The position numbers and the translations under genes are program-made. A stretch of 36,564 bases of DNA from Burkholderiales bacterium (lineage in GTDB: Bacteria > Pseudomonadota > Gammaproteobacteria > Burkholderiales > Burkholderiaceae_C). Shown piece by piece: positions 9,862-32,395 of the stretch. Position 1 is the first letter of the stretch. Every line of letters begins with the position of its first letter. The stretch is from positions 1 through 36,564 of the forward strand of contig JAGWTJ010000007.1 of NCBI GenBank assembly GCA_028869005.1. Reading direction: 5' to 3'. The notes below the pieces were generated by a model. The model was not told the origin of the DNA and searched no databases. It was given only the letters and a program-made list of their open reading frames with translations.

Positions 9862-10166
9862 CGCGGCGACCCGCGCGCGGGCAGCTCGACGTCGCAGGCG
9901 ACGACCTCGGCGATGTGCGGCGCCATGAAGGCCTTCATCTGCTGGTGTACCGGCGAGACCTGGTAGCGCTCGTGGTCGCGCGCATCGTCGAAGGTGGCGA
10001 TCACGACCCAGCCGAACTGGGCCGCGCGCGACGCCACGTTGCGGCCGAAGTGGTAGTCGCGCACGTAAGGCAGTTCGGCGCGCACGCGAGCGGCGAAGGC
10101 CTCGGTGCCGGCCACGAACGGCGCGTCGGCGTCGCGCAGGTTCATCAGCACGGTGTGGTGGAACAT
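9858..10166 (-). CDS. Dabb (stress-responsive A/B barrel) domain protein
   Basis: 102 residues from ATG at 10166. The pattern MFHHTVLMNLR, the central YHFGRNVASR, FGWVVIATFDD, and YQVSPVHQQMKAFMAPHI matches the dimeric alpha/beta-barrel Dabb family, a ferredoxin-like fold found as small cofactorless enzymes or stress proteins. It is the first gene of a two-gene unit; its stop overlaps the start of the acyl-CoA ligase by 4 bp. The function is not known. An apparent extension upstream to 10385 is low-complexity Arg/Pro-rich sequence and overlaps the livK-type promoter, so it is rejected. Confidence 0.8.
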   Translation of the reverse strand: MFHHTVLMNLRDADAPFVAGTEAFAARVRAELPYVRDYHFGRNVASRAAQFGWVVIATFDDARDHERYQVSPVHQQMKAFMAPHIAEVVACDVELPARGSPR

Positions 10167-10292
10167 GGGGCTGGTCGGCGTCGCGCTCGCCACTCTCGCG
10201 GCGCTGCAGCCTAGTCGAACGCTGCCCGCGTGGCAAGGCGCAGGCGCGCTGCGCCCGGGGTGCTGCGCGAGGCCGCGAACGCGCGCCACGGC

Positions 10293-10340
10293 CAATCGCC
10301 CCAATCGCCCCAATCGCCCGCGCCGGGCGGGGCGGGGCGG
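10293..10340 (+). repeat. Three 9-bp tandem repeats followed by a G-run block
   Basis: CAATCGCCC occurs three times head to tail at 10293-10319. From 10325 to 10340 the plus strand reads GGG, GGGG, GGGG, GG separated by single C bases, a candidate G-quadruplex. The block ends six bases before the -35 box of the ABC transporter promoter. The repeat may vary in copy number by slippage; a regulatory role is a guess. Confidence 0.5.
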
Positions 10341-10346
10341 CACCGC

Positions 10347-10387
10347 TTGACAGCGGCCGGGCGGGATGATCGAATGAACAGTCATTC
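10347..10387 (+). promoter_or_regulatory. Promoter and operator site 1 (ABC importer operon)
   Basis: -35 TTGACA (10347-10352), 17-bp spacer, -10 TCGAAT (10370-10375). Overlapping the -10 is a perfect inverted repeat GAATGA-N4-TCATTC (10372-10387), whose core TGAACAGTCA (10375-10384) recurs with small changes at three other promoters in the cluster. Its position would block RNA polymerase, so repression by the cluster's TetR protein is inferred. Confidence 0.65.
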
Positions 10388-10406
10388 ATAAAAGCTGGAG
10401 ACCTCC

Positions 10407-11603
10407 ATGACCGGATCGAGAAGGACCGCCGTGCTCGGCCTGTCGGCGATCGCCCTGTGCGCCGCGCTGGGCCCCAACGCCTGGGCGCAGAAGGAGCCGC
10501 TCAAGATCGGCGTGCCGACGGCGCTCAGCGGCACCTACGCGCAGCTCGGCGACGAGGTCAAGCGGGCGGTGGAGTTCGCGGTCAACGAGGCCAACGCCGG
10601 CGGCGGCGTCGACGGCCGCAAGGTCGAGGTGCGCTTCCTCGACACCGAGGCCAAGCCCGAGCTGGCGCGCCAGCAGGCCGAAAAGCTCGCGCTGGAGGGC
10701 TTCAACATCATGACCGCCACCATCTCCTCGGGCGAGGTGCTGGCGATCGGCCCCAACCTGGCACGCTGGAACGCGGTCTACGTGTCGACCGTCGCCAAGG
10801 CCAACGACATCACCGGCAAGCAGTGCCAGCGGCGGCTGTTCCGCGTGAATCGCCCCGACTACTCGGATGCGGCCGTGGTGCAGCCCTGGCTGGCGACGCG
10901 GCCCGAGACCAAGTGGGCGATCGTCGCCGCCGACATCGCCTGGGGCCGCAACTCCGGCGAGAGCTTCGGCAAGGCCGCCGCGGCCACCGGCAAGACCATC
11001 GTCTCGGACAATTACCCGCCGTTCGGCAGCAACGACTACGCCGCGCACATCCAGAAGGTGGTCGATTCGGGAGCGCAAGGCATGTGGGTGGCGCTCGCCG
11101 GCCGCGACGCCATGACCTTCGCGCGCCAGGCCAAGCAGTTCGGGCTGTTCGACAAGGTCACCACCGGCGGCGTCAGCTTCACGACCGACGGCACCGTGAA
11201 GGTGCTCGGCGACGTCGTCAAGGGCATCCACACCATCATCAACTACAGCTCGACGCTGGACACGCCGGCCAACCGCAAGTTCGTGGCCGACTGGGCCAAG
11301 GCCTACCCGGGCGACTCGCCGACCAACTTCGGCGGCGAGACCTATGTCGGCATGCAGGTCATCTTCCAGGCCGTGAAGAAGGCAGGCAGCATCAAGCCGG
11401 CCGACGTCGCCAAGGCGATTTCGGGCGGCACCTTCGAGACCATCCTCGGCACGCAGCTGATGCGCAAGGACGACAACCAGCTCATCGGCCCGAACTACTT
11501 CGGCATCGTCGAGGCGGTCGACGGCAAGCTGCGCCCGGTCATCAAGATGACGATTGCGGCCCAGGCAGCCACGCCCGGTCCTGACGCCGGTTGCAAGTTC
11601 TGA
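10407..11603 (+). CDS. Periplasmic substrate-binding protein of a branched-chain-amino-acid-type ABC importer
   Basis: 398 residues, ATG with GGAG six bases upstream. A signal peptide is clear: MTGSRR, a hydrophobic stretch, then AWA-Q with cleavage after residue 27. The mature part starts with KIGVPTALSGTYAQLGDEVKRAVEFAVNEANAGGGVDGRKVEVRF, the hallmark of the LivK/type I periplasmic binding fold (Peripla_BP_6). Relatives outside amino acid transport bind aromatic or alicyclic acids, urea or amides. Sitting in front of two permeases, two ATPases and a CoA-transferase-SDR fusion, and under the same operator as badI and the CoA ligases, it probably captures the acid degraded by this cluster (inference). 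A 118-bp gap separates it from the permease gene, common where the binding protein is made in excess. Confidence 0.9.
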   Translation: MTGSRRTAVLGLSAIALCAALGPNAWAQKEPLKIGVPTALSGTYAQLGDEVKRAVEFAVNEANAGGGVDGRKVEVRFLDTEAKPELARQQAEKLALEGFNIMTATISSGEVLAIGPNLARWNAVYVSTVAKANDITGKQCQRRLFRVNRPDYSDAAVVQPWLATRPETKWAIVAADIAWGRNSGESFGKAAAATGKTIVSDNYPPFGSNDYAAHIQKVVDSGAQGMWVALAGRDAMTFARQAKQFGLFDKVTTGGVSFTTDGTVKVLGDVVKGIHTIINYSSTLDTPANRKFVADWAKAYPGDSPTNFGGETYVGMQVIFQAVKKAGSIKPADVAKAISGGTFETILGTQLMRKDDNQLIGPNYFGIVEAVDGKLRPVIKMTIAAQAATPGPDAGCKF

Positions 11604-11721: not shown

Positions 11722-12567
11722 ATGATCCAGATCCTCAACGGCGTCGTCTACGGCAGCTTCCTGTACGTGCTCGCCGTCGGGCTGGTGCTGATCTTCGGCC
11801 TGCGCCGCATCACGAATTTCGCGCACGGCGGCTTCTTCATGCTCGGCGCCTATGTCTCGCACGCGGTGGCCGTCCACCTGGGCTTCTGGACCGGCATGGT
11901 GGCCTCGGTCGCGGTGCTGGCAGTGCTGGGCGTGCTGCTCGATCGTTTCGTGTTCCGGCCGCTGGCGAGCGAGGAGCCGATCGTCACGCTGCTGGTGACC
12001 TTCGGCATGCTGTTCGTGCTCGAAGACGCCGTGCGCACGATCTGGGGCAAGAATTTCATTTCGGTGGCGACGCCGCCGGCGCTGGCCGGCTCGGTCACGA
12101 TCTTCGGCTCGCAGTTTCCTGTCTACCGCCTCTTCGTCATCGCCGTCGCCGTCGCGGTGGCGGCCGGGCTGGCGCTGTGGCTGCGCTCGAGCCGCGTCGG
12201 CCTGTACGTCAGGGCGTCGAGCGTCGATCCGGTGACGACCGGCATGCAGGGCGTCGACACCGATCGGCTGAGCGCGCTCGTGGTGGCGATCGGCACCGGC
12301 CTGGCCGGCTTGTCCGGCACCATCGCCGGACCGCTGATGGCGCTGTCGCCGTCGATGGGCGGCTACATCATCATCGACTGCTTCATCGTCATCGTCACCG
12401 GCGGGTTGACCAGCTTCACGGGCGCCTTCGTCGCGGCGCTGGTGATCGGGCAGTTCCACAACCTGGGCCTGGTCTACGTGCCCGAGGTGGCGTCGATGAT
12501 TCCGCTCTTGATCATGGGGCTGGTGCTGGGGCTGCGGCCGCAGGGCCTGGCGGGGTCCGGCAAGTGA
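11722..12567 (+). CDS. livH: LivH-type ABC permease
   Basis: 281 residues, about eight hydrophobic segments, beginning MIQILNGVVYGSFLYVLAVGLVLIFGLRRITNFAHGGFFMLGAY, the standard LivH opening with the NFAHG motif. It forms the inner-membrane channel together with the LivM-type subunit. AGGA lies nine bases upstream of the ATG. The stop overlaps the GTG start of the next gene (GTGA), indicating translational coupling. The symbol denotes family; the substrate is probably a carboxylic acid rather than leucine, judged only from neighbours. Confidence 0.88.
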   Translation: MIQILNGVVYGSFLYVLAVGLVLIFGLRRITNFAHGGFFMLGAYVSHAVAVHLGFWTGMVASVAVLAVLGVLLDRFVFRPLASEEPIVTLLVTFGMLFVLEDAVRTIWGKNFISVATPPALAGSVTIFGSQFPVYRLFVIAVAVAVAAGLALWLRSSRVGLYVRASSVDPVTTGMQGVDTDRLSALVVAIGTGLAGLSGTIAGPLMALSPSMGGYIIIDCFIVIVTGGLTSFTGAFVAALVIGQFHNLGLVYVPEVASMIPLLIMGLVLGLRPQGLAGSGK

Positions 12568-13586
12568 GCGCAGGCGCGGCACAGCGCGAGGCCGCCCGCG
12601 GCGCCGGCCCCGGCCGCCCAGCGGGGCTGCGGCTGCCGCGGCTCGTCGCCGTCGCGCTGCTGGTGATGGCGGCCGGGGCCGCGGTGCCGTGGGCGGTGCG
12701 CTCGCAGCTCGTGCTCACGCTGATGACGCAGGCGCTGATCTACGCCATCCTCGCCGTGGCGATCGGCTTCCTGATCCGGCAGAACGGGCTCACCAGCTTC
12801 GGCCACGCGGCCTTCTTCGGCATCGCCATCTACCTGCTGGCGCTGAACGCCAAGTTCGGATGGATGCCGGCCGAGCTGGCGGTGTTGGCGGCGATCGCGC
12901 TGCCGGCGTTGTTCGCCTTTGTGGTCGGACTGATCATCGTGCGCCTGCCGGCGCTGTCGTTCTCGATGCTCACCCTGGCGGTCGCGCAGTCGCTGTACGA
13001 GCTGATGCTGCGTTGGCGCCAGCTCGCCAACGGCGACGACGGCATGCCGGTCAAGCTGCCTTCGTCGCTGTTCGGCATCGACATCGAGTTCTTCCAGTCG
13101 CCCGACAAGATGTTCGTCGTCTGCTGGGTGGCGCTGGTGGCGGTGGTGGCGCTGCTCAGCGTCGTCGCGCGCAGCCACTTCGGCGTGCTCACCGTTGCCA
13201 TCCGCGAGAACGAGGAGCGCGCGCGCTACATCGGCTATCGCACGCTGCTGCCGCGCGCGCTGGTGTTCGCGCTGTCGGCCGCGGTGGGCGGGCTGGCCGG
13301 GGCGCTGTTCGCCCTCTACAACGCCTTCGTCACGCCGGGCGTGCTGAACTGGAGCCTGTCGGGCGAGGCGCTGATCATGGCGGTGATCGGCGGCGCGCAT
13401 GCGATCTGGGGGCCGGCGCTCGGTGCCGTCGTCTTCTTCCTCGTCAAGGATGCCGCCGGTGACCTCACCGAGCACTGGCCGGCGATCATCGGCGCGCTGC
13501 TGATCGTCGTCGTCGTGCTGCGTCCCGACGGACTCGCCGGCGCCCTGGCGCGGCTGCGCGAGCGCATGGCGGGGCGTGCGCGATGA
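12564..13586 (+). CDS. livM: LivM-type ABC permease
   Basis: 340 residues from a GTG that overlaps the livH stop by four bases. After a 28-residue Ala/Arg-rich N-terminus come about nine membrane segments. NGLTSFGHAAFFGIAIYLLAL and the cytoplasmic loop AIRENEERARYIGYRTLLPRALVFALSAAVGGLAGALFA, the coupling-helix region that contacts the ATPases, are typical of LivM. The reading frame is open far upstream inside livH, but that part is not conserved. The stop overlaps the livG ATG. Confidence 0.88.
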   Translation: MSAGAAQREAARGAGPGRPAGLRLPRLVAVALLVMAAGAAVPWAVRSQLVLTLMTQALIYAILAVAIGFLIRQNGLTSFGHAAFFGIAIYLLALNAKFGWMPAELAVLAAIALPALFAFVVGLIIVRLPALSFSMLTLAVAQSLYELMLRWRQLANGDDGMPVKLPSSLFGIDIEFFQSPDKMFVVCWVALVAVVALLSVVARSHFGVLTVAIRENEERARYIGYRTLLPRALVFALSAAVGGLAGALFALYNAFVTPGVLNWSLSGEALIMAVIGGAHAIWGPALGAVVFFLVKDAAGDLTEHWPAIIGALLIVVVVLRPDGLAGALARLRERMAGRAR

Positions 13587-14293
13587 CCTCGCTCGCGCTC
13601 GAGGGCATCGGCTTGACGCGCCGCTACGGCGGCTTCGCGGCGCTCGACGACGTCACGCTGCAGCTCGAGCCGGGCGAGATCCGCGGCCTGATCGGACCCA
13701 ACGGTGCCGGCAAGTCGACGCTGATGGACGTGCTGTGCGGGCGCGGCGGCAGCCCCGTCGGGCGCGTGCTGCTGGGCGGACGCGACATCAGCCGGCTGTC
13801 GGCGCAGGCGCGGCGTCGCGCCGGCCTCGCGCGTTCGTTCCAGAAGACCAATATCTTCGCCGCGCTCGCGGTGCGCGAACAGGTGGCGCTGGCGGCGCGC
13901 ATGGCCGAGGTCGACAACACCGACGAAGTGCTGGACGCGCTCGGGCTGGCCGAGCTCGCCGAGCGTCGCGCCGGCGACATCGCCTACGGCGACCAACGCC
14001 GGCTCGATCTGGCGCTGGCGCTGGTCGGCCGGCCCTCGGTGCTGCTGCTCGACGAGCCGGCGGCGGGGCTGTCGATCCAGGAGTCGATCACGCTGGCGCG
14101 CCTGCTCAAGGAACTGGCCGACAGCTGGAAGGTGACGGTCCTGCTGGTCGAGCACGACATGGAGGTGATCTTCTCGGTGTCCGACCGCATCACCGTGCTC
14201 AACCTCGGTCGCGTGCTCGCGCAAGGTTCGGTCGACGAGATCCGCGCCAATGCCGAGGTCGTGCGCGCCTACCTCGGGTCGAGCGTCGCATGA
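13583..14293 (+). CDS. livG: LivG-type ABC transporter ATP-binding protein
   Basis: 236 residues. Walker A GPNGAGKST at 38-46, a signature region reading IAYGDQRRLDLA near 133-144 (the LivG form of LSGGQ), Walker B VLLLDEP at 153-159, and the switch His in VEHDMEVIF. It pairs with the LivF-type ATPase on the cytoplasmic face to drive uptake. It is slightly shorter than the usual 250-260 residues. The ATG overlaps the livM stop, and its own stop overlaps the start of livF. Confidence 0.88.
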   Translation: MTSLALEGIGLTRRYGGFAALDDVTLQLEPGEIRGLIGPNGAGKSTLMDVLCGRGGSPVGRVLLGGRDISRLSAQARRRAGLARSFQKTNIFAALAVREQVALAARMAEVDNTDEVLDALGLAELAERRAGDIAYGDQRRLDLALALVGRPSVLLLDEPAAGLSIQESITLARLLKELADSWKVTVLLVEHDMEVIFSVSDRITVLNLGRVLAQGSVDEIRANAEVVRAYLGSSVA

Positions 14294-15009
14294 GCGCGCA
14301 TGAGGGCGCCGTGACGTCGCTGCTCAGCCTGCGCGCGGTCGAGGGCGGCTACGGCCAGGCGCGCATCCTCAACGGCGTCTCGCTCGACGTGCGACGCGGC
14401 GAACGGGTGGCCATCCTCGGGCGCAACGGGGTGGGCAAGACGACGCTGGTCAATGCCTGTCTGGGCATCGCGCGGCTGCACGGCGGCGAGATCGCGTTCG
14501 ACGGCCGGCCGCAAGGCGCGATCAAGCACTTCACGGCCGCGCGCTCGGGCATCGCCGTCGTGCCGCAGGGGCGGCGCATCGTGCCCGGGCTCACGGTGCG
14601 CGAGAACCTCGCTTTAGGCGCCGCGGTGCGGCGGCCGGGACGCTGGAACTTCGACACCGTCTGCGAACTGTTCCCCATCCTGCGCCAGCGCGCCGACACG
14701 CCCGGCACGGCGATGAGCGGCGGCCAGCAGCAGATGCTGGCGATCGGCCGCGCGCTGATGGCCAACCCCGAGCTGCTGATCCTCGACGAGCCCAGCGAGG
14801 GCCTGGCGCCGGTCATCGTCGACGAGCTGGCGGCGACCTTCGTGCGCCTGGCTTCGGAGAACACCGCCATCCTGCTGATCGAGCAGAACTTCAGCCTCGT
14901 GTACCGCGTGGCGCAGCGCTACTACGTGCTGTCCAAGGGGGCGGTGGTCGAGCAGGGCGGTGTCGAGGGCATGTCGATCGAAGACCTGAAGAAGCACGTG
15001 GCGGTGTGA
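14290..15009 (+). CDS. livF: LivF-type ABC transporter ATP-binding protein
   Basis: 239 residues, with an ATG overlapping the livG stop. Walker A GRNGVGKTT at 44-52, signature MSGGQQQMLAIGRAL, Walker B LLILDEPSEGLAP, and the C-terminal LIEQNFSLVYRVAQRYYVLSKG are all standard for LivF. It is the second ATPase of the importer. Its stop overlaps a GTG that opens the CoA-transferase-SDR fusion gene, so all six genes of this operon except the first are joined by 4-bp overlaps. Confidence 0.9.
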   Translation: MSAHEGAVTSLLSLRAVEGGYGQARILNGVSLDVRRGERVAILGRNGVGKTTLVNACLGIARLHGGEIAFDGRPQGAIKHFTAARSGIAVVPQGRRIVPGLTVRENLALGAAVRRPGRWNFDTVCELFPILRQRADTPGTAMSGGQQQMLAIGRALMANPELLILDEPSEGLAPVIVDELAATFVRLASENTAILLIEQNFSLVYRVAQRYYVLSKGAVVEQGGVEGMSIEDLKKHVAV

Positions 15010-16907
15010 CAGCTTCGATGCCATCCTCTCCCGCCTTGCCGCTCGCCGAAGTCCGGGTGCTGGACTTCTCCAACCTGCTGCCGGGGCCGCTGGCGAGCCT
15101 CGTCCTGGCCGAGGCGGGCGCCGACGTCATCAAGCTCGAGCGAGCGGGCAGCGGCGACGAGATGCGCGGCTACGCGCCGGCGTGGGGCGGCATGAGCGGC
15201 AACTTCGCGCTGCTCAATCGCGGCAAGACGAGCTTCGCCGTCGACCTGAAGAACCCGTCGCAGCGCGCGCAGGTGCTCGAGCTCGCGCGCTCGGCCGATG
15301 TCCTGATCGAGCAGTTCCGCCCGGGCGTGATGGCCCGGCTCGGGCTCGATTACGACACCTTGCGCGCCGCCAACCCGGGGTTGATTTACTGCTCGATCAC
15401 CGGCTACGGCCAGACCGGGCCGCGCGCGGCGAAGGCCGGCCACGACCTCAACTACATGGCCGAAAGCGGACTGCTCGGTCTGACGCGCGACGCCGACGGC
15501 GCACCGACGCTGCCGCCGGTGTTGGCCGCCGACATCGGCGGCGGCGCCTACCCGGCGCTCGTCAACATCCTGCTCGCGCTGCAGGCGCGCTCGGCGGGCG
15601 GGCGCGGCTGCCATCTCGACGTCGCGATGTGCGACAACCTCTTCACCTTCGCCTACTGGGGCCTGGCGGCGGGCCTCGCGGGCGGACGCTGGCCGCGGCC
15701 GGGGGCCGAACTGACCACCGGCGGCTCGCCGCGCTATGGCCTCTATCGCACGGCCGACGGATTGCATCTGGCCGCTGCGCCGATCGAGGAGCGGTTCTGG
15801 CAGACGTTCTGCGATCGCATCGGCCTGCCTGCGGCCGAGCGCGACGACCGCGGCGACCCGGCCGCGACGCGCCGCCGCGTCGCCGAGCGCGTGGCCGCAC
15901 GCACAGCCGACGAATGGCGCAGCTGCTTCGGCGACGCCGATGTCTGCGTCTCGATCGTCGAGCCGCTCGAGCAGGCCGTCGCCGACCCCGCGCTCGCGCA
16001 GCGCCGCCTGTTCGCACGCCGCGTGGCCGCGGGTGCGGCCAGCATGCCGGCGCTACCGGTGCCTATCGTCGACGCGCTGCGTGATCCGGCGGTGCTGCGC
16101 AGCGCCCCGCCGCTGGTCGAGGCCGGCGCTCGCAGCGCGGCGTGGCGCCAGCCGCGGCCCGCGGCGCAGCGCCCCTACGACCTGAGCGGCATGCGGATCC
16201 TGCTGAGCGGTGCCGCCGGCGGCATCGGCCGGGCGACCGCCCGGCTGTGCGCCGACCTCGGCGCCGAACTCGTGCTGACCGATCGTGCGCCGGTGAGCGA
16301 TCTGCTCGCTGCGCTGCCGGCGCACGGCCGCGGCCATCGCTTCATCGCCTGCGACGTCGCTTCGCGCAGCGAGATCGACCGGCTGTTCGATGCCGTCGAC
16401 GCCATCGGCGACATCGACGCGGCGATCCTCAACGCCGGCGTCTATCCGAGCGCGAACTGGAACGACGAGGCCTGGGACGAGGAGTTCGACCTCGCGATGC
16501 GCGTCAACGCGCGTGCCCCGGCGCATTTCGCGCGCCGGCTGTTGCCGAAGATGAAGGCGCGCGGCCGCGGGCGGCTGGTGCTGGTGGGCTCGATCGCCGC
16601 CTACACGGGCGGCAGCTACGAGCATTCACCGCTGCACTACGCCGCTTCCAAGGGTGCGCTGCACACCACCATCCGCTGGCTGGCGCGACGGGGCGCGCCG
16701 CAGGTGCTGGTCAACGGCGTGGCGCCCGGTTCGACGGCCACGCCGATGCTCGCCGGCGCCGACCCGGCGGCGCTGCAGGCGATGCCGCTGCCGCGCTTCG
16801 CACGGCCCGAGGAGATCGCCTGGCCGATCGCCTTCCTGTGCTCGCCGGGCGCGAGCTTCATCTGCGGCACCGTGCTGGACGTGAACGGCGGCGCCTGCAT
16901 GCGCTGA
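15006..16907 (+). CDS. Fusion of an AMACR/CaiB-type class III CoA-transferase domain and a short-chain dehydrogenase
   Basis: 633 residues in one uninterrupted frame. Residues about 12-385 form a CaiB/BaiF-fold domain: DFSNLLPGPLASLVLAEAGADVIKLE at the start, GHDLNY at 145-150 with the catalytic Asp D147, then GGSPRYGLYRTADG and IEERFWQTFC. The GHDxNY form resembles alpha-methylacyl-CoA racemases more than formyl-CoA transferases. Residues about 393-633 are a complete SDR: cofactor motif SGAAGGIG (401-408), NAG (476-478), catalytic S529, Y545 and K549, and the C-terminal VLDVNGGACMR. The start is GTG at 15006, overlapping the livF stop; ATG at 15018 is an alternative. In this setting the SDR could take the BadH role, oxidising 2-hydroxycyclohexanecarboxyl-CoA, while the first domain moves CoA or inverts the alpha carbon (inference). 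It is the last gene of the importer operon. Confidence 0.9.
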   Translation: MTASMPSSPALPLAEVRVLDFSNLLPGPLASLVLAEAGADVIKLERAGSGDEMRGYAPAWGGMSGNFALLNRGKTSFAVDLKNPSQRAQVLELARSADVLIEQFRPGVMARLGLDYDTLRAANPGLIYCSITGYGQTGPRAAKAGHDLNYMAESGLLGLTRDADGAPTLPPVLAADIGGGAYPALVNILLALQARSAGGRGCHLDVAMCDNLFTFAYWGLAAGLAGGRWPRPGAELTTGGSPRYGLYRTADGLHLAAAPIEERFWQTFCDRIGLPAAERDDRGDPAATRRRVAERVAARTADEWRSCFGDADVCVSIVEPLEQAVADPALAQRRLFARRVAAGAASMPALPVPIVDALRDPAVLRSAPPLVEAGARSAAWRQPRPAAQRPYDLSGMRILLSGAAGGIGRATARLCADLGAELVLTDRAPVSDLLAALPAHGRGHRFIACDVASRSEIDRLFDAVDAIGDIDAAILNAGVYPSANWNDEAWDEEFDLAMRVNARAPAHFARRLLPKMKARGRGRLVLVGSIAAYTGGSYEHSPLHYAASKGALHTTIRWLARRGAPQVLVNGVAPGSTATPMLAGADPAALQAMPLPRFARPEEIAWPIAFLCSPGASFICGTVLDVNGGACMR

Positions 16908-16936: not shown

Positions 16937-18580
16937 TCAGGCTGTGCGCTCGCGGACCATCTCGCGCAGCTTGAACTTCTGCACCTTGCCCGAGGGCGTC
17001 GCCGGCAGCGCGTCGCGCAGCTCGAGGCGCTCGGGCAGGTACTGCGTGGCGATCTTGTGCGACGCGAGGAACGCGATCATCGAGTCGAAATCCAGGCTCT
17101 GGCCGGGCTTGGTGACGACAAAGGCGCAGGCGCGCTCGCCCAGGCGTGCATCCGGATAGCCGACGATGGCGACCTGCGCGACCGCAGGGTGCCGGTACAG
17201 CAGAGCCTCGACCTCGATGACCGGAATGTTCTCGCCGCCGCGAATGATCACGTCCTTGCTGCGGCCACTGATGCGGAGGTAGCCGCGCGCGTCGACCAGC
17301 GCCATGTCGCCGGTGTCGAACCAGCCGTCCGCGTCGGTGCCGTTGAGGTGCGGGCGCTTCAGATAGCCGCCGAAGTTCGAGCAGCCGCGCACCCACAGTC
17401 GGCCGACCGTGTCCGGCGCCAGCGTGCGGCCCTCGTCGTCGACGACGCGCACCTCCATGCCGGGCAGCGGGCAGCCGTCGGTGTGGATCGAGCGCTCGTC
17501 GTCGTCGTCGGGCAGCGTCGTCGTCACGGCGCCGTTTTCGGTCATGCCCCAGGCCGAGACGATCTTGGCGCCGAGCGCGGCGCGCGCCTGCTCGACCAGC
17601 GGGCCGGGAATCGGCGCGCCGGCACAGAGGAAGGTGCGCAGCGTCGGGATCGGCCGGCCCGACTGCGCGACCTCGCGCGCCAGGTCGGACAGGAAGGGCG
17701 TCGACGCCATGGTGAAGGTCACGCCCTCGGTGCGGCTCAGTTCTGCCGCGCGCGCCGGGTCCCAGATGTCGAGCAGCACGGCGCGCGAGCTCAACATGAC
17801 GGGCATCATCAAGCCATAGAGGAAACCGGTCTGGTGCGCCATCGGCGAGGCCATCAGCACCACGTCGTCGGCGCCCAGCCCGAGGCGCTCGGCATAGGGC
17901 ACGATGTTCGACATCGCCGTGTTCGCCGAGTGCATCACGCCCTTGGGCTCGCCGGTGGTGCCCGAGGTGTAGATGAGCTGCATCACGTCGTCGGCGCTCG
18001 GGCGGCTGCGTGTCAGGATGTGGTGCGCGTCAACCTCGCGCTCCCAGGCCGGTTCGGTCAGGCGCGCCTCGAAGCTGTCGGCTCCCTCGCCGCCGACGGC
18101 CAGCACGTGCCGCAAGTCGGGCAGGCTGCCCTGCAGTCCGCGCAGCATCTGCTCGAAGTCGAAGCCGCGAAAGCGCCTGGGCACGATCGCCAGCTTGCTG
18201 CGTCCGTGCGCCAGCATGAACGACAGCTCGCGCTCGCGGAAGATGTGCATCAGCGGATTCATCACCGCGCCGATGCGGGCACAGGCCAGATAGACGAGCG
18301 TGAACTCCCAGCCGTTGGGCAACTGGCACGAGACGACGTCGTTGCGCCCGACTCCGAGACGTGCCAGTCCGACGGCGATGCGATCGGCGAGCGCGCCCAT
18401 CTCGCGCCAGATCAAGCGCCGCGTCGTGCCGCGCTCGAGCGAGACCGCGGTGAGCGCGACCTTGTCGGGGCAGCGCAGCACTGCGGCGTCGAGCGCATCG
18501 TTGATGGTGCGATCGCGCCAATGGCCTTGCGTGCGCATCGCGTCGCGCCGCGGCGCGATCAGGACCGCGTCGAAATCCAT
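16937..18580 (-). CDS. aliA: Cyclohexanecarboxylate-CoA ligase-like AMP-forming ligase (AliA family)
   Basis: 547 residues. It activates a carboxylic acid to its CoA thioester via an acyl-adenylate. YTSGTTGEPKG at 204-214, GMTENGAV, GWFDTGD, SGRSKDVIIRGGENI, and the catalytic Lys K532 in PSGKVQKFKLRE are all present. The N-terminal GHWRDRTINDAL block and the NPLMHIFRERELSFML block match, from memory, the AliA-type ligases of Rhodopseudomonas alicyclic acid degradation. It lies 67 bp downstream of badI on the same strand and is probably co-transcribed, as in known badI/aliA clusters. A second ligase of the same family is encoded at 22287-23927. Exact substrate (cyclohexane-, cyclohexene- or related carboxylate) is not settled by sequence. 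A short run of GTC repeats encodes DDDDE. Confidence 0.8.
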   Translation of the reverse strand: MDFDAVLIAPRRDAMRTQGHWRDRTINDALDAAVLRCPDKVALTAVSLERGTTRRLIWREMGALADRIAVGLARLGVGRNDVVSCQLPNGWEFTLVYLACARIGAVMNPLMHIFRERELSFMLAHGRSKLAIVPRRFRGFDFEQMLRGLQGSLPDLRHVLAVGGEGADSFEARLTEPAWEREVDAHHILTRSRPSADDVMQLIYTSGTTGEPKGVMHSANTAMSNIVPYAERLGLGADDVVLMASPMAHQTGFLYGLMMPVMLSSRAVLLDIWDPARAAELSRTEGVTFTMASTPFLSDLAREVAQSGRPIPTLRTFLCAGAPIPGPLVEQARAALGAKIVSAWGMTENGAVTTTLPDDDDERSIHTDGCPLPGMEVRVVDDEGRTLAPDTVGRLWVRGCSNFGGYLKRPHLNGTDADGWFDTGDMALVDARGYLRISGRSKDVIIRGGENIPVIEVEALLYRHPAVAQVAIVGYPDARLGERACAFVVTKPGQSLDFDSMIAFLASHKIATQYLPERLELRDALPATPSGKVQKFKLREMVRERTA

Positions 18581-18647: not shown

Positions 18648-19430
18648 TCATTTGGCGAACTTACGGAACTGAGGCTTGCGCTTTTCCTGAAACGCCTTGA
18701 CGCCTTCGCGCGACTCCTCGCTGTCGTAGTACAGCTTGAGCGCGTACATGCCCATGCCGGCGATGCCGGCCTGGTGCGCGGTGTCCATGTTGAACGAGCG
18801 CTTGGCGATGGCGATCGCGGTCGGACTGCGCTCCATGATCTCGTCGCACCACTTGCGGACTTCGGCGTCGAGCTGATCGTGCGGCACCACCGTGTTCACC
18901 AGCCCCATCGCCAGCGCCTCGGCCGCCGTGTAGCGACGGCACAGGTACCAGATCTCGCGCGCCTTCTTCTCGCCGACCACGCGCGCCAGGAACGCCGTGC
19001 CGTAGCCGGGGTCGACCGAGCCGACCTTGGGGCCGACCTGGCCGAACACCGCCTTGTCGGAGGCGATCGTGAAGTCGCAGATCGTGCACAGCACGTTGCC
19101 GCCGCCGATGGCGTAGCCCTGCACGCGCGCGATCACCGGCTTGGGCACGTCGCGGATGGCCGCATGCAGCTCCTCCATCGGCAGGCCGATCGTGCCGCGG
19201 CCGTCGTACTGGCCTTCGTGCGCCGACTGGTCGCCGCCGGTGCAGAAGGCGCGCTCGCCGGCGCCGGCGAGCACGACGACGCCGATCTGGCGGTCGTAGC
19301 CGGCGCGGTTGATGGCCTCGATCAGCTCGTCGCAGGTGCGGCCGCGGAACGCGTTCATGCGCTCGGGCCGGTTGATCGTGATCCAGGCCGCGCCGTCGCG
19401 CACGTCGTAGAGGATGTCCTGGTAGTCCAT
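18648..19430 (-). CDS. badI: 2-Ketocyclohexanecarboxyl-CoA hydrolase (BadI)
   Basis: 260 residues from ATG at 19430, with AGGGGAG nine bases upstream. The crotonase-fold protein carries the whole BadI/MenB-type signature: NRPERMNAFRG, FCTGGDQSAHEG, GRGTIGLPMEELHAAIRDVPKPVIARVQGYAIGGGN, GQVGPKVGSVDPGYG with D140, and RSFNMDTAHQAGIAGMGMYALKLYYDSEESREG. From memory this tracks the Rhodopseudomonas palustris BadI nearly throughout, including total length. BadI hydrolytically opens the ring of 2-ketocyclohexane-1-carboxyl-CoA to pimeloyl-CoA, a reverse-Dieckmann reaction. MenB is the close relative but lacks this surrounding context. It leads a reverse-strand unit with the aliA-like gene and is divergent from the oxidoreductase operon; operator site 2 sits in its promoter. 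Confidence 0.9.
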   Translation of the reverse strand: MDYQDILYDVRDGAAWITINRPERMNAFRGRTCDELIEAINRAGYDRQIGVVVLAGAGERAFCTGGDQSAHEGQYDGRGTIGLPMEELHAAIRDVPKPVIARVQGYAIGGGNVLCTICDFTIASDKAVFGQVGPKVGSVDPGYGTAFLARVVGEKKAREIWYLCRRYTAAEALAMGLVNTVVPHDQLDAEVRKWCDEIMERSPTAIAIAKRSFNMDTAHQAGIAGMGMYALKLYYDSEESREGVKAFQEKRKPQFRKFAK

Positions 19431-19640: not shown

Positions 19641-20666
19641 ATGAAAGCGGTCGTCGCGCACGCCTTCGGCGCCATCGAGCAGTTGCGCCTCGAGGACTGG
19701 CCCGATCCGCTGCCGGGACCGGGCGAGGTGGTCATCGACGTCGTCGCCGCCGGCGTGAACTATCCCGATCTGCTGGTCACCGGCGGGCGCTACCAGATCC
19801 TGCCGACGCCGCCGTTCATTCCCGGCAAGGAGGCCGCCGGCGTCGTCTCGGCGGTGGGCGCGGGCGTGCACACCTGCGCGATCGGCGACCGCGTGCTGGC
19901 GATGGTCGAAAGCGGCGCGTATTGCGAGCGGCTGCGCGCGCCGCAGGCGAACTGCTTCGTGCTGCCGCCGCGCATGGGCTGGCTCGAGGCCGCCGGCTTT
20001 GCGCTCGCCTTCCAGACCGCGCATTTCGCGCTGGTCGAGCGCGCGCAGCTGCAGCCCGGCGAAACGGTGTTGGTGACCGGCGCCGCGGGCGGCGTCGGGC
20101 TGGCCTGCGTGCAGCTGGCCAAGGCGCTGGGTGCGCGCGTGCTGGCCGGCGTCGGCACGCCCGACAAGGGCCGCGTCGCGCAGGCGGCGGGTGCCGATGC
20201 GATGGTCGACCTGGCGCGCGCCGATCTGCGCGATGCGCTGCGCGCCGACGTGCGTGCGCTGAGCGGCGGCCGCGGTGCCGACGTCATCCTCGACGTCGTC
20301 GGCGGTGACGTGTTCGATGCGGCGCTGCGCGCGCTCGCCTGGCGTGGCCGGCTGATCGTGCTCGGCTTCGCCGGCGGCCGCATACCGACGCTCTCCGCGA
20401 ACTACGTGCTGCTCAAGAACATCGCCGTCAGCGGCCTGCACTGGAGCGACTATCGCGACGCGCATCCGGACTGGATGCGCCGCGCGCAAGCCGAGCTGTT
20501 CGCGCTCTACGAGCAGGGCCGGCTGCACACCGAGCTGGCGGCGGCCTATCCGCTCGCCGGCGCCGCGCGCGCGATGGCCGAGCTGCGCGATCGCCGCGTC
20601 AAGGGCAAGGTGGTGCTGACCACCGAGCGCTGGCGCGCGCTCGACAGTGGGCACGTGGCGACATGA
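19641..20666 (+). CDS. Zinc-free MDR-family NADPH:quinone oxidoreductase
   Basis: 341 residues. The medium-chain dehydrogenase fold begins MKAVVAHAFGAIEQLRLEDWPDP. The VNYPDLLVTGGRYQ and PFIPGKEAAGVV blocks typify quinone-oxidoreductase-like members, and AAGGVG (148-153) binds NADP. No structural zinc cysteine cluster is seen. Such enzymes reduce quinones or the double bond of enones and enoyl-CoA analogues. In this operon it may recycle reduced cofactor or reduce an unsaturated intermediate (inference). The ATG lacks a strong ribosome site. Its stop overlaps the start of the thioesterase gene (ATGA). Confidence 0.88.
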   Translation: MKAVVAHAFGAIEQLRLEDWPDPLPGPGEVVIDVVAAGVNYPDLLVTGGRYQILPTPPFIPGKEAAGVVSAVGAGVHTCAIGDRVLAMVESGAYCERLRAPQANCFVLPPRMGWLEAAGFALAFQTAHFALVERAQLQPGETVLVTGAAGGVGLACVQLAKALGARVLAGVGTPDKGRVAQAAGADAMVDLARADLRDALRADVRALSGGRGADVILDVVGGDVFDAALRALAWRGRLIVLGFAGGRIPTLSANYVLLKNIAVSGLHWSDYRDAHPDWMRRAQAELFALYEQGRLHTELAAAYPLAGAARAMAELRDRRVKGKVVLTTERWRALDSGHVAT

Positions 20667-21130
20667 GCGCGTCTGCGTTCATGCCGCCCCCGGGCTTCGC
20701 GGTCTGCCGCATCGCCGACGGGCGCTTCGCCGAGGCGGTCGGTCCGCTGTACCTGCACGCCGCCGCGCCGGTGCGCTTCGGCCTGCTGGCCGAGGCCCGC
20801 CACGGCAATGTCCACGGCGCCGTGCACGGCGGCCTGCTGATGACGCTGGCCGACCAGGTGCTTGGCCTGACCGTGATGCTGAGCGTGGGCCTCGAGACGC
20901 CGGTCGTCACCGTCAGCCTGCACTGCGACTTCGTGTCCGCCGTGCGTCCGGGTGACTGGATCGAAGGCGAGGCCACGATCACGCGCGCGACGCGCTCGCT
21001 GGTCTTCGTGCACGGCAGCCTCAGCCATGGCGACGGCGTGGTGCTGTCCGCCGCCGGGGTCTGGAAGAAGGTGCGCGGCAGCGCGGGTGCAGGCGCAGCA
21101 GATGGGCGGGAGCGGGAGCGGCGAAGATGA
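20663..21130 (+). CDS. PaaI-like hotdog-fold acyl-CoA thioesterase
   Basis: 155 residues. The hotdog core shows the HGGLLMTLADQVLG motif (H55-G-G, D64) that places the catalytic acidic residue at the start of the long helix, and the later strands TVSLHCDFVSAVRPGDWIEGEATITR. It would hydrolyse CoA esters and so release CoA from dead-end intermediates. Its start overlaps the oxidoreductase stop and its stop overlaps the acyl-CoA dehydrogenase start, so all three genes are translationally coupled. The last 20 residues are Gly/Arg-rich and probably disordered. Confidence 0.85.
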   Translation: MSASAFMPPPGFAVCRIADGRFAEAVGPLYLHAAAPVRFGLLAEARHGNVHGAVHGGLLMTLADQVLGLTVMLSVGLETPVVTVSLHCDFVSAVRPGDWIEGEATITRATRSLVFVHGSLSHGDGVVLSAAGVWKKVRGSAGAGAADGRERERRR

Positions 21131-22278
21131 TCCTCAACGAATCGCAATCGATGATCCAGAGCACCGCGCGCGCCTTCGCGCGCGAGCAGCTCGCGCCGCA
21201 CGGCGCCGAGTGGGACCGCACGGCGGCCTTTCCGCGCGACGCGCTGCGGCGCATGGGCGAGCTCGGACTGCTCGGCATGACGGTGCCCGAGCGCTGGGGC
21301 GGCGTCGGCGCCGACAGCGTTTCGCTGGCGGTGGCGCTGGAGGAGATCGCCGCCGGCGACGCCGCCTGCGCCACCGTGATGAGCGGCCACAACTCGGTCG
21401 GCTGCATGCCGATCGCCACCTTCGGCAGCGACGAACAGAAGGAGCGCTTTCTGGCGCCGATGGCGCGCGGCGAGATGCTCTCGGCGTTCTGCCTGACCGA
21501 GCCGCAGGGCGGCTCCGACGCGGGCGCGCTGACGACGCGCGCGCGCCGCGACGGCGACCACTACGTGCTGTCGGGCACCAAGCAGTTCATCACCACCGGC
21601 AAGAACGCCGAGGTGGCGCTGGTGTTCGCCGTCACCGCGCCCGAGCAGGGCCGCCGCGGCATCAGCGCCTTCATCGTGCCGACGGCGACGCCCGGCTACG
21701 TCGTCGCTCGCGTCGAATCGAAGATGGGGCAGCGCGCGTCCGACACCTGCCAGATCCGCTTCGACGACCTGCGCATTCCCTCCGCGCTGCGGCTGGGCGA
21801 GGAGGGGGCGGGCTACCGCATCGCGCTGGCCAACCTCGAGGGCGGTCGCATCGGCATCGCGGCGCAGGCGGTGGGCATCGCGCGCGCCGCGCTCGCCGCC
21901 GCGCAGAGCTACGCGCGCGAGCGCGTGACCTTCGGCCGCCCGATCATCGAGCATCAGGCGGTGGGCTTTCGCATCGCCGCGATGGCGACGCGCGTCGAGG
22001 CCGCGCGCCAGCTCGTGCTGCACGCGGCGCAGTTGCGCGACGCACAGCGGCCCTGCCTGATGGAGGCCTGCATGGCCAAGCTGGTGGCCTCGGAGGCCGC
22101 CGAGTGGGTGTGCTCCGAGGGCATCCAGGTGCTCGGCGGCTACGGCTACTTGAACGACTTCCCGCTCGAACGGCTGTACCGCGACGCCCGCGTCACGCGC
22201 ATCTACGAAGGCACCAACGACATCCAGCACCTCGTGATCCTGCGCGAGCTCGAGCAGCGCGGCGCGCGCGGCGCCTGA
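21127..22278 (+). CDS. Acyl-CoA dehydrogenase (AliB-like)
   Basis: 383 residues, the standard size. FAD-dependent oxidation of a saturated acyl-CoA to the 2,3-enoyl-CoA, passing electrons to ETF. The FAD/substrate blocks FCLTEPQGGSDAG and FITTGKNAEVALVFAV are present, and the catalytic Glu is at 361 in RIYEGTNDIQ, the position used by short- and medium-chain enzymes. The context (badI, two AliA-like ligases) suggests the role of AliB, cyclohexanecarboxyl-CoA to cyclohex-1-enecarboxyl-CoA, but sequence alone does not exclude a linear or branched substrate. Third gene of an operon, with an ATGA overlap. It converges on the second ligase gene with only 8 bp between stops. Confidence 0.88.
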   Translation: MILNESQSMIQSTARAFAREQLAPHGAEWDRTAAFPRDALRRMGELGLLGMTVPERWGGVGADSVSLAVALEEIAAGDAACATVMSGHNSVGCMPIATFGSDEQKERFLAPMARGEMLSAFCLTEPQGGSDAGALTTRARRDGDHYVLSGTKQFITTGKNAEVALVFAVTAPEQGRRGISAFIVPTATPGYVVARVESKMGQRASDTCQIRFDDLRIPSALRLGEEGAGYRIALANLEGGRIGIAAQAVGIARAALAAAQSYARERVTFGRPIIEHQAVGFRIAAMATRVEAARQLVLHAAQLRDAQRPCLMEACMAKLVASEAAEWVCSEGIQVLGGYGYLNDFPLERLYRDARVTRIYEGTNDIQHLVILRELEQRGARGA

Positions 22279-22286
22279 GCGCGGGC

Positions 22287-23927
22287 TCAGCCGAGCGGCG
22301 GGAGAGCGCGCGCGAGCTCGCGCAACTGGTACTTCTGGATCTTGCCGCTGGCCGTGCGCGGCATCTGCTCGAGCAGTTCGAGGCGCTCGGGGAAATACTG
22401 CCGCGCCATGTGCTGCGCTTCGAGGAAGGCGACCAGCGTCGCGAAGTCCAGCGCGTGACCGGGCTGCAGCGTCACGAAGGCGCAGGCGCGCTCGCCCAGT
22501 CTGGCGTCGGGCATGCCGACGATGGCTACCTCGCGCACCGCGGGATGGCGGTACAGCGCGTTCTCGACCTCCACCACCGGCACGTTCTCGCCGCCGCGGA
22601 TCAGGATGTCCTTGGCGCGACCGGTGATGCGGATGTAGCCGCCTTCGAGCATCAGCGCCAGGTCGCCGGTGTCGAACCAGCCGTCGGCGGTCGGCTGCGA
22701 CAGCTCGGGGCGCATGAAGTAGCCGAGGAAGTTGCCGATGCCGCGGCACTGCAGCCGGCCCTCCTGACCGTGCGGCAGCGGCCGGTCGTGGCCATCGACG
22801 ACGCGCACTTCCATGCCGGGCAGGGCGACGCCGTCGGTGCCGAACACGCGGTCGTCCGCGTCACCCGGGACGGTGGTCGTCACCGACCCGGTCTCGGTCA
22901 TGCCCCAGGCCGAGACGATGCGGGCGCCGAGGCGATGCGTGGCGCGCGCGACCAGCACGCGCGGGATCGGCGCGCCCGAGGACACAAAGGTGCGCAGCGT
23001 GCCGATGTCGTGGCGCTCGAGGGCCGGCGTGTCGGCGAGGTCGGCCAGGAACGGCGTCGAGCCCTTGGTGTAGGTGACGCCCTCGTCCTCGATCAGCCGC
23101 GCCGCCTCGGACGGCTCCCAGATGTCCTGCAGCACCAGCTTGGCACCGAGCATCGGCGCCATCATCAGCCCGTACATGAAGCCGGCCTGGTGCCCCATCG
23201 GCGAGGCCATCAGGATGACGTCGTCGCCGCCGAGCCCGAGCCGCCTGGCGTACTGCTGCAGGATGCTAAGCAGCGTGTTCGAGCTGTGCAGCGCGCCCTT
23301 GGGCTCGCCGGTCGTGCCCGAGGTGTAGAGCAACTGCACCGCGGCGTTCGGGCTCGGGCGCCGCTGCGCGAACAGCTGCGCGGTGTCGCACTCGTCCTCC
23401 CAGCGTCGTTCGAGCAGCACCTTGTCGAACGCGTCGCTTCCGCTGCCGCCGACGACCAGGAGGTGGTGCAGTTCGGGCAGTTCGGGACGCAGCGCGTCGA
23501 CCATCGCCGGGTAGTCGAAGCCGCGAAACGACCGCGGCACGACCAGCACGCGCGCCTTGGCGAAGGCCAGCATGTAGCGCAGTTCGCGCTGGCGGAAGAT
23601 CGGCATCAGCGGATTGGTGAGCGCGCCGATGCGCACGCACGCCAGGTGTAGCGCGACGAACTCCCACCAGTTCGGCAACTGGCAGGCGACGACCGCGCCC
23701 GGCTCGACGCCTAGCGCCGCCAGCCCCGCTGCGATGCGATCGACGCGGCGGCGCAGCTGGCGCCACGACAGCGTGGTCGTCGCCCCGCTCATGCTGTTGC
23801 GTCCGGTGACGGCGACCTTGTCCGGGTGTCGTGCCGCGGCCTCGTCCAGGTGGTCGGTCAGCAGCCGGTCAGGCCAGTAGGCCTCGGCCCATGGCTGCGG
23901 TGTCCAGGCGGCGGGCGGCGTGTTCAT
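22287..23927 (-). CDS. Second AliA-like AMP-forming CoA ligase
   Basis: 546 residues from ATG at 23927; a TTG 27 bases earlier would add nine residues but has no ribosome site, and the ATG gives the same length as the paralogue at 16937-18580. YTSGTTGEPKGALHSS, GMTETGSVTTT, GWFDTGDLAL, GRAKDILIRGGENVP and the Lys K529 in ASGKIQKYQLREL are intact. It is clearly a paralogue of the first ligase (shared MASPMxHQxGFxYGLMM and NPLMxIFRxREL blocks) but diverged across its length, so probably an old duplication with a different acid preference. Divergent from tetR with a 198-bp shared control region holding operator site 4. Confidence 0.85.
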   Translation of the reverse strand: MNTPPAAWTPQPWAEAYWPDRLLTDHLDEAAARHPDKVAVTGRNSMSGATTTLSWRQLRRRVDRIAAGLAALGVEPGAVVACQLPNWWEFVALHLACVRIGALTNPLMPIFRQRELRYMLAFAKARVLVVPRSFRGFDYPAMVDALRPELPELHHLLVVGGSGSDAFDKVLLERRWEDECDTAQLFAQRRPSPNAAVQLLYTSGTTGEPKGALHSSNTLLSILQQYARRLGLGGDDVILMASPMGHQAGFMYGLMMAPMLGAKLVLQDIWEPSEAARLIEDEGVTYTKGSTPFLADLADTPALERHDIGTLRTFVSSGAPIPRVLVARATHRLGARIVSAWGMTETGSVTTTVPGDADDRVFGTDGVALPGMEVRVVDGHDRPLPHGQEGRLQCRGIGNFLGYFMRPELSQPTADGWFDTGDLALMLEGGYIRITGRAKDILIRGGENVPVVEVENALYRHPAVREVAIVGMPDARLGERACAFVTLQPGHALDFATLVAFLEAQHMARQYFPERLELLEQMPRTASGKIQKYQLRELARALPPLG

Positions 23928-24024
23928 GCGATGGCTGCGCGGGCTCGGATGCAATGGGTCGGATTAGACACGCCCAGCGCGTCGCGTCCTGCCGCGCCAC
24001 GGCAACGATTCTTGCGCAGGACGT

Positions 24025-24068: not shown

Positions 24069-24125
24069 TTCATTGCGCCTCGGCGGCCGGTGCAGGCCGG
24101 TCGCCGCGCAGGGGTAAAGGCAGCC

Positions 24126-24914
24126 GTGACCATCGTCATCCAGAGCCGGGTCGAGGATCCCGATCGCATCGAGTGGCGGCGCGAGCAGATCGTGCGCGCC
24201 GCGGTGCGCTGCTTCGCGAGCGACGGCTACCACCGAACGACGATCAAGGACATCGCCGATACGGCCGGCTTCAGCTCGGGTCTCATCTACTCCTACGTCA
24301 AGGACAAGGAGGACGTGCTGTTCCTCGTCTTCCGGCTGATCTTCGAGACCTACCAGCGCGAGATTCCGCGCCGCCTCGAAGGCATCACCGATCCGCTGCA
24401 GCGCTTTTGCACCGCGGTGCGCGCCTACTGCGAGGCCGTCGACAGCAACCTCGGCGCCACGGTGGTCGGCTATCACGAAAGCGGCTCGCTGCGCCCGGCG
24501 CTGCTCGAGGCGGTGCAGAAGATGGAGCTCGAGACCAACCGGCTGATCTCCGAGCCGGTCGAAGCGTGCATCGCGGCCGGCCACTTCCGTGCGGTGAACG
24601 TCGACCTGCTGACCTTTCGCGTCGTCTTCCTCGCCCATGGCTGGGCGCTCAAGCATTGGCACTTCGCGCGGATCGTCTCGCTCGAGGGCTACATCGAGGA
24701 GGGCCTCAACCTGTTCCTGAATGCGCTGCTGACTCCCGCGGGCCGCCGGCACTGGCAGCGCCGGGCCAAGGACTGGGCGGCCGCCGCCGCGCAGGCGACA
24801 GCCGCACGCCGGCCGGCTCGCGCGCGCAGGCCGTCATCGCCCAAGTCATCGCGCCGGGCGCCCCGGTCGGCACGGGCGACGCGCAAGACCGCATCGACGA
24901 AGCCGCCGCGCTGA
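24126..24914 (+). CDS. TetR/AcrR-family transcriptional regulator with a basic C-terminal tail
   Basis: 262 residues from GTG at 24126, chosen because AAAGG lies five bases upstream. The N-terminal helix-turn-helix (about 17-62) reads RREQIVRAAVRCFASDGYHRTTIKDIADTAGFSSGLIYSYVKDKEDVLF, fully canonical. The central helical domain to about 215 would bind a small ligand, likely an acyl-CoA of the pathway. The last 45 residues are made almost only of Ala, Arg, Ser, Pro and Lys, an unusual histone-H1-like tail that may add non-specific DNA binding. It is the only regulator within the catabolic cluster, and the TGA-N4-TCA element at all four promoters, including its own, makes it the likely repressor (inference). 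Confidence 0.88.
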   Translation: MTIVIQSRVEDPDRIEWRREQIVRAAVRCFASDGYHRTTIKDIADTAGFSSGLIYSYVKDKEDVLFLVFRLIFETYQREIPRRLEGITDPLQRFCTAVRAYCEAVDSNLGATVVGYHESGSLRPALLEAVQKMELETNRLISEPVEACIAAGHFRAVNVDLLTFRVVFLAHGWALKHWHFARIVSLEGYIEEGLNLFLNALLTPAGRRHWQRRAKDWAAAAAQATAARRPARARRPSSPKSSRRAPRSARATRKTASTKPPR

Positions 24915-32196: not shown

Positions 32197-32331
32197 GGAC
32201 TCGAGGCGGGCGGCGGCGACCGAGGCGCGCGGCGCCCGGTGTCTGCTGTATCGGCAACGGCTCGTGCCGCTTGAGGGCACGGCCCGATGCGCGCCGCTGC
32301 GGCGTCGAAGTTGTCGTTTTCCGCGCCGAAG

Positions 32332-32353
32332 GCACCGGCATGCATGCCGGTGC
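32332..32353. promoter_or_regulatory. Perfect 22-bp palindrome between the membrane-protein and kinase genes
   Basis: The half-site GCACCGGCATG is followed at once by its exact complement, with no spacer, 57 bp before the kinase ATG. GACAAT at 32377-32382 is a possible -10 for the kinase gene, which would put the palindrome over its -35 region. Likely a dimer-binding operator serving one or both divergent genes. Confidence 0.55.
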
Positions 32354-32395
32354 GGCCGTGGACGGCGCGCTGCGCAGACAATAGCGGCCGCTCCG

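Follow-up and report, generated by a model that had tools for sequence, protein, structure and literature searches.

A fused AMACR/CaiB-type and short-chain dehydrogenase/reductase gene beside AliA and BadI genes in a Burkholderiales bacterium, and the loss of its dehydrogenase half in relatives

The stretch of DNA analysed here (the window) comprises 36,564 nucleotides of contig JAGWTJ010000007.1 from a Burkholderiales bacterium (GenBank assembly GCA_028869005.1), and its subject is a gene at 15006..16907 of the plus strand, in which a putative epimerase domain of the alpha-methylacyl-CoA racemase (AMACR)/CaiB type is fused to a short-chain dehydrogenase/reductase (SDR). The gene encodes 633 amino acids and begins with GTG, overlapping the stop codon of the upstream LivF-like ABC ATPase gene (GTGA). 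Pfam assigns CoA_transf_3 (PF02515, 3.1e-92) to residues 13-368 and adh_short_C2 (3.5e-43) to residues 402-629. The N-domain, with the class III CoA-transferase/AMACR fold, lies at 15042..16109 and is followed on the same strand by a linker (residues 375-392, 16128..16181) and by the C-domain, a classical SDR (residues 393-633, 16182..16904). As the original prediction had claimed, open reading frame (ORF) and Pfam analyses confirm one frame of 633 residues with CoA_transf_3 and a complete SDR, and the junction is free of a stop codon or frameshift. M396 was considered as an internal start that would yield a separate SDR, and no clear ribosome-binding site was seen by eye in the stretch inspected. 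Both domains are of known kinds, and searches of an open-access library, which leaves out most subscription journals, turned up no description of a racemase-SDR fusion.

Alignment of the N-domain with MCR, the AMACR of Mycobacterium tuberculosis (PDB 1x74), places the racemase triad at H146 (15441..15443, MCR H126), D176 (15531..15533, MCR D156, the catalytic Asp) and E261 (15786..15788, MCR E241), with the roles of the MCR residues taken from the available excerpts of PMC12246613. Across 82 aligned CaiB-type rows, window included, Asp is present in 82/82 and His and Glu each in 81/82; the sole row without the full triad is L003, a paralogue from the window's own genome (relatives are denoted here by L numbers). 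The catalytic residue had initially been placed at D147 of the motif GHDxNY, which has to be corrected, since D147 aligns with MCR D127, described in those excerpts as part of the active site and not as an acid-base residue. Because the Asp is found in racemases and transferases alike, it is indecisive alone, and it is the His and Glu that lean to a racemase; the best-scoring formyl-CoA transferase carries Tyr and Asn at these two places in the phmmer alignment. According to the accessible parts of PMC10967716 and PMC12246613, Glu241 of MCR is supplied by the partner subunit, so the fusion would have to dimerise via its N-half if it shares this mode of action.

When the full-length model was searched with Foldseek, MCR chains took ranks 1-28 among the best 50 matches listed, with target-normalised template modelling (TM) scores of 0.86-0.90 (0.88 for 1x74), while the CoA-transferases among these matches reached 0.75-0.87. 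No NCBIfam CoA-transferase equivalog exceeded its cut-off among the best 25 of 215 families (the top three being NF052585 169.4/750, NF008511 164.1/522, NF041294 145.9/700). Judged from these residues and folds, an epimerase is the likelier assignment of the N-domain. The earlier suggestion that the protein might invert the alpha carbon agrees with the MCR-type triad, whereas the suggestion that it loads CoA is weakened by the complete triad, by the MCR chains heading the fold search and by two CoA-ligase genes in the cluster.

The C-domain has the features of a classical SDR, namely the GxxxGxG cofactor motif (16209..16229; G402, G406 and G408) and the catalytic S529 (16590..16592), Y545 (16638..16640) and K549 (16650..16652), all as originally named, so that both active sites appear intact. 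An Asp at the end of strand 2 favours NAD in SDRs, and D426 at this place suggests that the fused SDR would prefer NAD. In the full-length model, SDR residues 530-548 and 570-633 fall below 50 in confidence, and the placement of the domains relative to each other was therefore left unused; the SDR was modelled alone, with a predicted local distance difference test (pLDDT) score of 91.7 and structural matches of the FabG type. An assignment of this half as BadH, the 2-hydroxycyclohexanecarboxyl-CoA dehydrogenase, was rejected, as it scores 90.3 bits on TIGR03206 against a cut-off of 431.2. In a tree of 18 SDR rows, the fused SDRs group with solo SDRs of Xanthobacter (99/98) that are 64-65% identical to the fused SDR (L065, L066); this tree alone does not show a single origin of the fusion. 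On the Xanthobacter chromosome, L065:230-6729 holds a Liv-type importer 56-67% identical to that of the window, followed by the solo SDR (64%) and no CaiB match in the locus, an arrangement that is perhaps the source of the fused SDR.

A contig set covering 84,980 species, each by a single genome, was scanned with six exact peptide patterns, which gave 182 relatives, and ORF analysis of the best 80 found both domains in one frame at four loci: L026 (Comamonas SCN 67-35), L027, L028 (Lautropia SCN 70-15, in which the contig end cuts the SDR) and L031 (Burkholderiaceae ACE_NR_PROT22). The CaiB halves of these are 71-74% and the SDR halves 63-69% identical to the window (L028 over 85 SDR residues), and as the fusion proteins of L027 and L031 are 99.2% identical, the four records represent about three lineages. 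L027 (JAKOVA010000020.1) is titled an Actinomycetes bacterium, and its bin may be mislabelled or mixed in view of this identity to a Burkholderiaceae protein. The same junction recurs in the four records, which argues against an assembly error, and orthologues of the gene are not always two separate genes; orthologues lacking the SDR half also occur (L029, L030, L032). All four fused relatives are records titled metagenome-assembled genome (MAG), with no isolate copy seen among them.

The pairing is thus genuine and, within what was searched, rare. At E <= 1e-60, 11 of 61 relatives (own genome included) matched, the 10 others by the CaiB part only and none past residue 398; at E <= 1e-138, 4 of 399 genomes of the order matched (the own genome and three with CaiB only, within residues 10-374), and among 369 genomes of the class only the own genome did. 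Plasmid records matched in 82 cases at 1e-50, with none having one place that covers 80% of the query. As the other fusions surfaced only via the six exact patterns and the best 80 of 182 relatives, more distant fusions may be missed. Two kinds of candidates were rejected: L072, L078 and L081 have two frames, with the SDR first and CaiB second, and are adjacent genes, which makes them an unfused pairing of these two families in reverse order; L039, aligned over query residues 12-628 across 2771 bases, has no SDR match there.

In three related lineages the racemase half is retained and the SDR half is either gone or damaged. In a tree of the CaiB half (55 rows, with 27 lower-scoring rows of the 82 left out), eight sequences form a clade (100/100) with unfused L032 at its base, then the fused window and the fused pair L026 and L028, and further, in turn, unfused L029, unfused L030 and the fused pair L027 and L031. 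This topology needs three changes, perhaps one gain and two losses of the SDR half. In L029 and L030, the importer-CaiB-AliA-BadI order is that of the window and CaiB ends at the linker, with no SDR domain behind it. A scar is left in L030, where positions 7190-7278, behind the CaiB stop, align with the window's SDR at its 3' end; the score is 60, against a maximum of 34 over 100 shuffles and 33 for the second-best place in the locus. One frame, other than that of CaiB, reads NAIARPISFLCSPSASVSRADLPPVTGNTCLR to the old C-terminus and then a stop. No such remnant was found in L029 and L032, with scores at shuffle level, and relocation of the fused SDR elsewhere in the L029 and L030 genomes was rejected, the best matches being 35% identical.

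L031 and L027 retain an open frame, in which G406 of the SDR is replaced by Arg and Y545 by Asp; L027 lacks G402 too. Among otherwise invariant SDR columns, L031 breaks 10/52 and L027 11/52, compared with 3/55 in the window (T401S, V474I, V556I) and 1/53 in L026; since solo SDRs also break such columns (L082 6/58, L102 7/59, L105 11/63), these counts are weak alone, and more weight attaches to the missing Tyr. Relative-rate counts for the SDR half are skewed for L031 against the window (36:15, chi-square 8.65) and against L026 (42:14, 14.0), with no clear difference between the window and L026 (24:16, 1.6). For the CaiB half, the same pairs in the same order give 28:27, 25:19 and 31:26, and it follows that only the SDR half is fast in L031.

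In the clusters of L029, L030 and L031, a separate SDR gene (SDR') lies behind that of the acyl-CoA dehydrogenase; the second ligase comes next in L029 and L031, while the L030 locus ends at SDR'. The SDR' proteins are 75-81% identical to each other, and those of L029 and L031 share about 30% identity with the fused SDR. A search with SDR' of L031 gave matches of 81% in the genome of L029 and 80% in that of L030, best matches of 33% and 36% in the L026 genome and the window's, and none at 1e-28 in the genomes of L027, L028 and L032; the L027 contig ends before the SDR' place, and an SDR' gene in that genome may have escaped the search. Where SDR' is absent, the fused SDR is therefore intact (window, L026 and, over the first part of the SDR, L028); in the three lineages of one clade that have SDR' (L029, L030, L031), it is lost or damaged. 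L032 has neither. In this small sample, the pattern suggests that the fused SDR and SDR' may do the same job.

Upstream of the fusion, on the plus strand, five genes of a Liv/Urt-type ABC importer encode a substrate-binding protein (10407..11603), a LivH/UrtB-type permease (11722..12567), a LivM-type permease (12564..13586), a LivG-type ATPase (13583..14293) and, last, the LivF/UrtE-type ATPase (14290..15009) whose stop overlaps the fusion start. The LivM and LivG types were named from their operon place; LivM has 56-80% identical orthologues in L027, L029, L030, L031 and L065, and the orthologues of LivG are 67-85% identical. Downstream, on the minus strand, lie AliA, a cyclohexanecarboxylate-CoA ligase (16937..18580; TIGR03208, 938 bits, cut-off 792.3), and BadI, a 2-ketocyclohexanecarboxyl-CoA hydrolase (18648..19418, start approximate; TIGR03210, 538.5 bits, cut-off 467.6). 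The importer directly upstream and the BadI neighbour had been part of the original prediction and both stand, with AliA and BadI above their NCBIfam cut-offs. A PIG3-type quinone/enoyl reductase (19641..20666; TIGR02824 243 bits, under cut-off), a hotdog thioesterase (4HBT, 20663..21130) and an acyl-CoA dehydrogenase (21127..22278) follow on the plus strand, and then a second AliA-like CoA ligase on the minus strand (22287..23954; TIGR03208 734.9 bits, under the cut-off of 792.3), which may act on another ring acid. In a search confined to the window, AliB (TIGR03207, cyclohexanecarboxyl-CoA dehydrogenase) was not found, the acyl-CoA dehydrogenase scoring 236.5 against a cut-off of 575.35.

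BadH over the cut-off of 431.2 is absent from the window's genome (best 280.8 bits; 453 contigs, given as 92.5% complete), and the genomes of L029 (260.5), L030 (254.6) and L031 (349.5) likewise have BadI and no BadH over this value, the BadI of L031 sitting on another contig. In the window, the vacant 2-hydroxyacyl-CoA dehydrogenase step could fall to the fused SDR; in L029, L030 and L031, SDR' could take it.

From the motifs, the cluster and the losses in relatives, we suggest that the gene quite possibly encodes a bifunctional acyl-CoA epimerase/dehydrogenase of alicyclic acid breakdown, a reading that we prefer and hold tentatively. The N-domain would dimerise as in AMACR/MCR, and with H146/E261 on one face and D176 on the other, the alpha-carbon proton of a ring acyl-CoA would be removed and returned, which interconverts the two configurations. 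The C-domain, probably preferring NAD, would oxidise a hydroxyl of the same acyl-CoA series to a ketone. In the window, the route we infer would run from Liv-type import over CoA loading by AliA and desaturation by the acyl-CoA dehydrogenase to hydration, with the hydratase presumably encoded elsewhere, then oxidation by the fused SDR and ring opening by BadI. The gain would be that, with the epimerase, both alpha-epimers of a substituted ring become usable in the stereospecific steps; that the two domains are coupled or channel an intermediate is hypothetical. The original interpretation is thereby partly supported. Its claim that BadI receives its 2-keto substrate from the fusion could be true in the window (no BadH in its genome passes the cut-off) and does not hold in general, as the L026 and L028 genomes have BadH before badI; such feeding is likely confined to clusters of the window's type.

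A bolder form of this proposal, which we think rather unlikely, sees the protein as a single-chain stand-in for BadH. The racemase would equilibrate the alpha centre of 2-hydroxy or 2-keto ring acyl-CoAs and the SDR would draw off one epimer, so that racemic substituted cycloalkane acids would be fully converted to the BadI substrate. This would be an evolved dynamic kinetic resolution, later dissolved in the sister lineages that gained a separate SDR.

Several results weigh against the bifunctional reading. Query-normalised TM scores do not separate MCR (0.50-0.52) from the transferases (0.50-0.54), and in the phmmer search of solved structures the top match is formyl-CoA transferase (190.7 bits), ahead of FAR (184.7) and MCR (180.0-174.8). 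On the BadH model, 20 other SDR places in the window's genome outscore the fused SDR, the SDR tree puts the fused SDRs outside the branch holding BadH and SDR' (93/92), and solo SDR relatives stand in varied contexts, e.g., a meta-cleavage-type cluster in Azospirillum. BadH over cut-off lies right before badI in the genomes of L026 (437.0) and L028 (476.2), on contigs other than those of the fusion (badI of L028 being a fragment of 79 residues at a contig end), so the fused SDR there is redundant or acts on something else; the fusion of L026 neighbours another SDR, an enoyl-CoA hydratase-family gene, two acyl-CoA dehydrogenases and a ligase. No BadI orthologue turned up in the genomes of L027 and L032 (best 36% and 36%). 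Since C1 of cyclohexanecarboxylate is not a stereocentre, the presence of a racemase points to substituted rings or to hydroxy/keto intermediates. Three lineages of one clade underlie the SDR' pattern, with the L027 contig ending short of the place and the L028 SDR partial, and the repeated loss of the SDR half means that a coupling is not essential. The pairwise ratio of nonsynonymous to synonymous rates (dN/dS) does not reveal a relaxation of the SDR half, being 0.33 for window-L026, 0.33 for window-L031 and 0.30 for L026-L031, with 0.27, 0.19 and 0.15 for the CaiB half; L027 and L031 differ by one synonymous and two nonsynonymous changes in each half, too few for an estimate.

A rival explanation is a gene shared for stoichiometry or co-expression only, in which an early epimerase acts on branched or substituted acyl-CoAs and the SDR performs an unrelated oxidation, e.g., of a hydroxy acid that has been imported. 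The domains would then have no intermediate in common, and neither would be connected with BadI. Several solo CaiB relatives adjoin acyl-CoA dehydrogenase and PIG3 genes (e.g., L012, L024, L025, L036 and L041), the closely related Xanthobacter SDRs stand alone, that of L065 behind a homologous Liv importer without CaiB, and the SDR half is dispensable. We regard this explanation as possible, if doubtful, because the loss of the fused SDR accompanies a separate cluster SDR in three lineages, which suggests a step within the same pathway, and because the window and L026 keep an intact SDR. That the fused SDR is becoming a vestige everywhere, with only the epimerase mattering, would agree with the decay in L027/L031 and the loss in L029 and L030; the intact catalytic residues in the window and L026, the lack of a clear rate difference between their SDR halves (24:16) and the dN/dS of 0.33 for these halves make this very unlikely.

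It also seems improbable that the N-domain is a true class III CoA-transferase, loading CoA on an imported acid whose product the SDR then oxidises. The shared Pfam family, the leading phmmer match and the equally high query-normalised TM scores speak for it, and IsoG, first likened to AMACR, is now predicted to be a CoA-transferase in the sections available of PMC10057887; the full His/Asp/Glu triad tells against it, as formyl-CoA transferase, the sole transferase aligned by residue, carries Tyr in place of the His and Asn in place of the Glu, and so do the MCR chains at the head of the fold search and the two ligase genes. An assembly or binning artefact is hardly credible: the four relatives are titled MAG, the window's genome is in 453 contigs, and a search at 1e-100 with a different gene from this contig (29650-30933) found it in 3/38 genomes (the own genome, one of the same genus at 91% and another at 49%), so that the contig is tied to the genus solely through one genome; yet two of the four records with the same junction have it in contigs of 203 and 612 kb.

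Compared with known systems, the N-domain resembles MCR in fold and full triad, while the solved MCR chains lack an SDR domain and are 31-33% identical to the fusion. Class III CoA-transferases (formyl-CoA transferase, SUGCT, BbsEF) have the fold, the Pfam family and the Asp in common with it; formyl-CoA transferase, compared residue by residue, lacks its His and Glu. ThnP, the intramolecular CoA-transferase of naphthalene breakdown, belongs to family I in the excerpts of PMC11659651 and is thus not a relative. BadH is an SDR too, with its role vacant beside AliA and BadI in the window's genome, but it sits on another branch of the SDR tree and the fused SDR scores far below its cut-off. With the bad-ali pathway of Rhodopseudomonas and Aromatoleum CIB, as given in the accessible parts of PMC9795900, the window shares AliA, BadI and an acyl-CoA dehydrogenase; it differs in having no BadH over cut-off in its genome and in its additional Liv-type importer and racemase-SDR fusion. 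The same parts state that the bad-ali clusters of most Burkholderiales strains lack badK. Among the described pairs that we met, the nearest in one pathway is that of isoprene degradation, in which IsoG has the AMACR/CoA-transferase fold and IsoH is an SDR; unlike the fusion, they are encoded by separate genes, and the SDR acts on a glutathione conjugate (PMC10057887, in its available sections).

If its activities are coupled, the protein would be a natural one-protein answer to the stereospecific breakdown of ring or branched acids, with relevance to naphthenic acids. The related clusters form a natural series, with intact fusion, decay by point mutation, deletion with a scar and clean absence, beside an SDR encoded separately, and with this series one could test what use a fusion is.

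Farther from the fusion, an acyl/acetyl-CoA synthetase-like ORF of 850 amino acids (7837-10389, minus strand) has Pfam matches only from residue 214, and its start is probably overcalled or it has an N-terminal extension. A TetR-type gene lies at 24090-24914, a large ORF with BTAD and AAA domains, likely a regulator, at 26191-29583 (plus strand), and an ORF with a Ser/Thr protein kinase domain and a C-terminal DUF4384 at 32287-34413 (plus strand).

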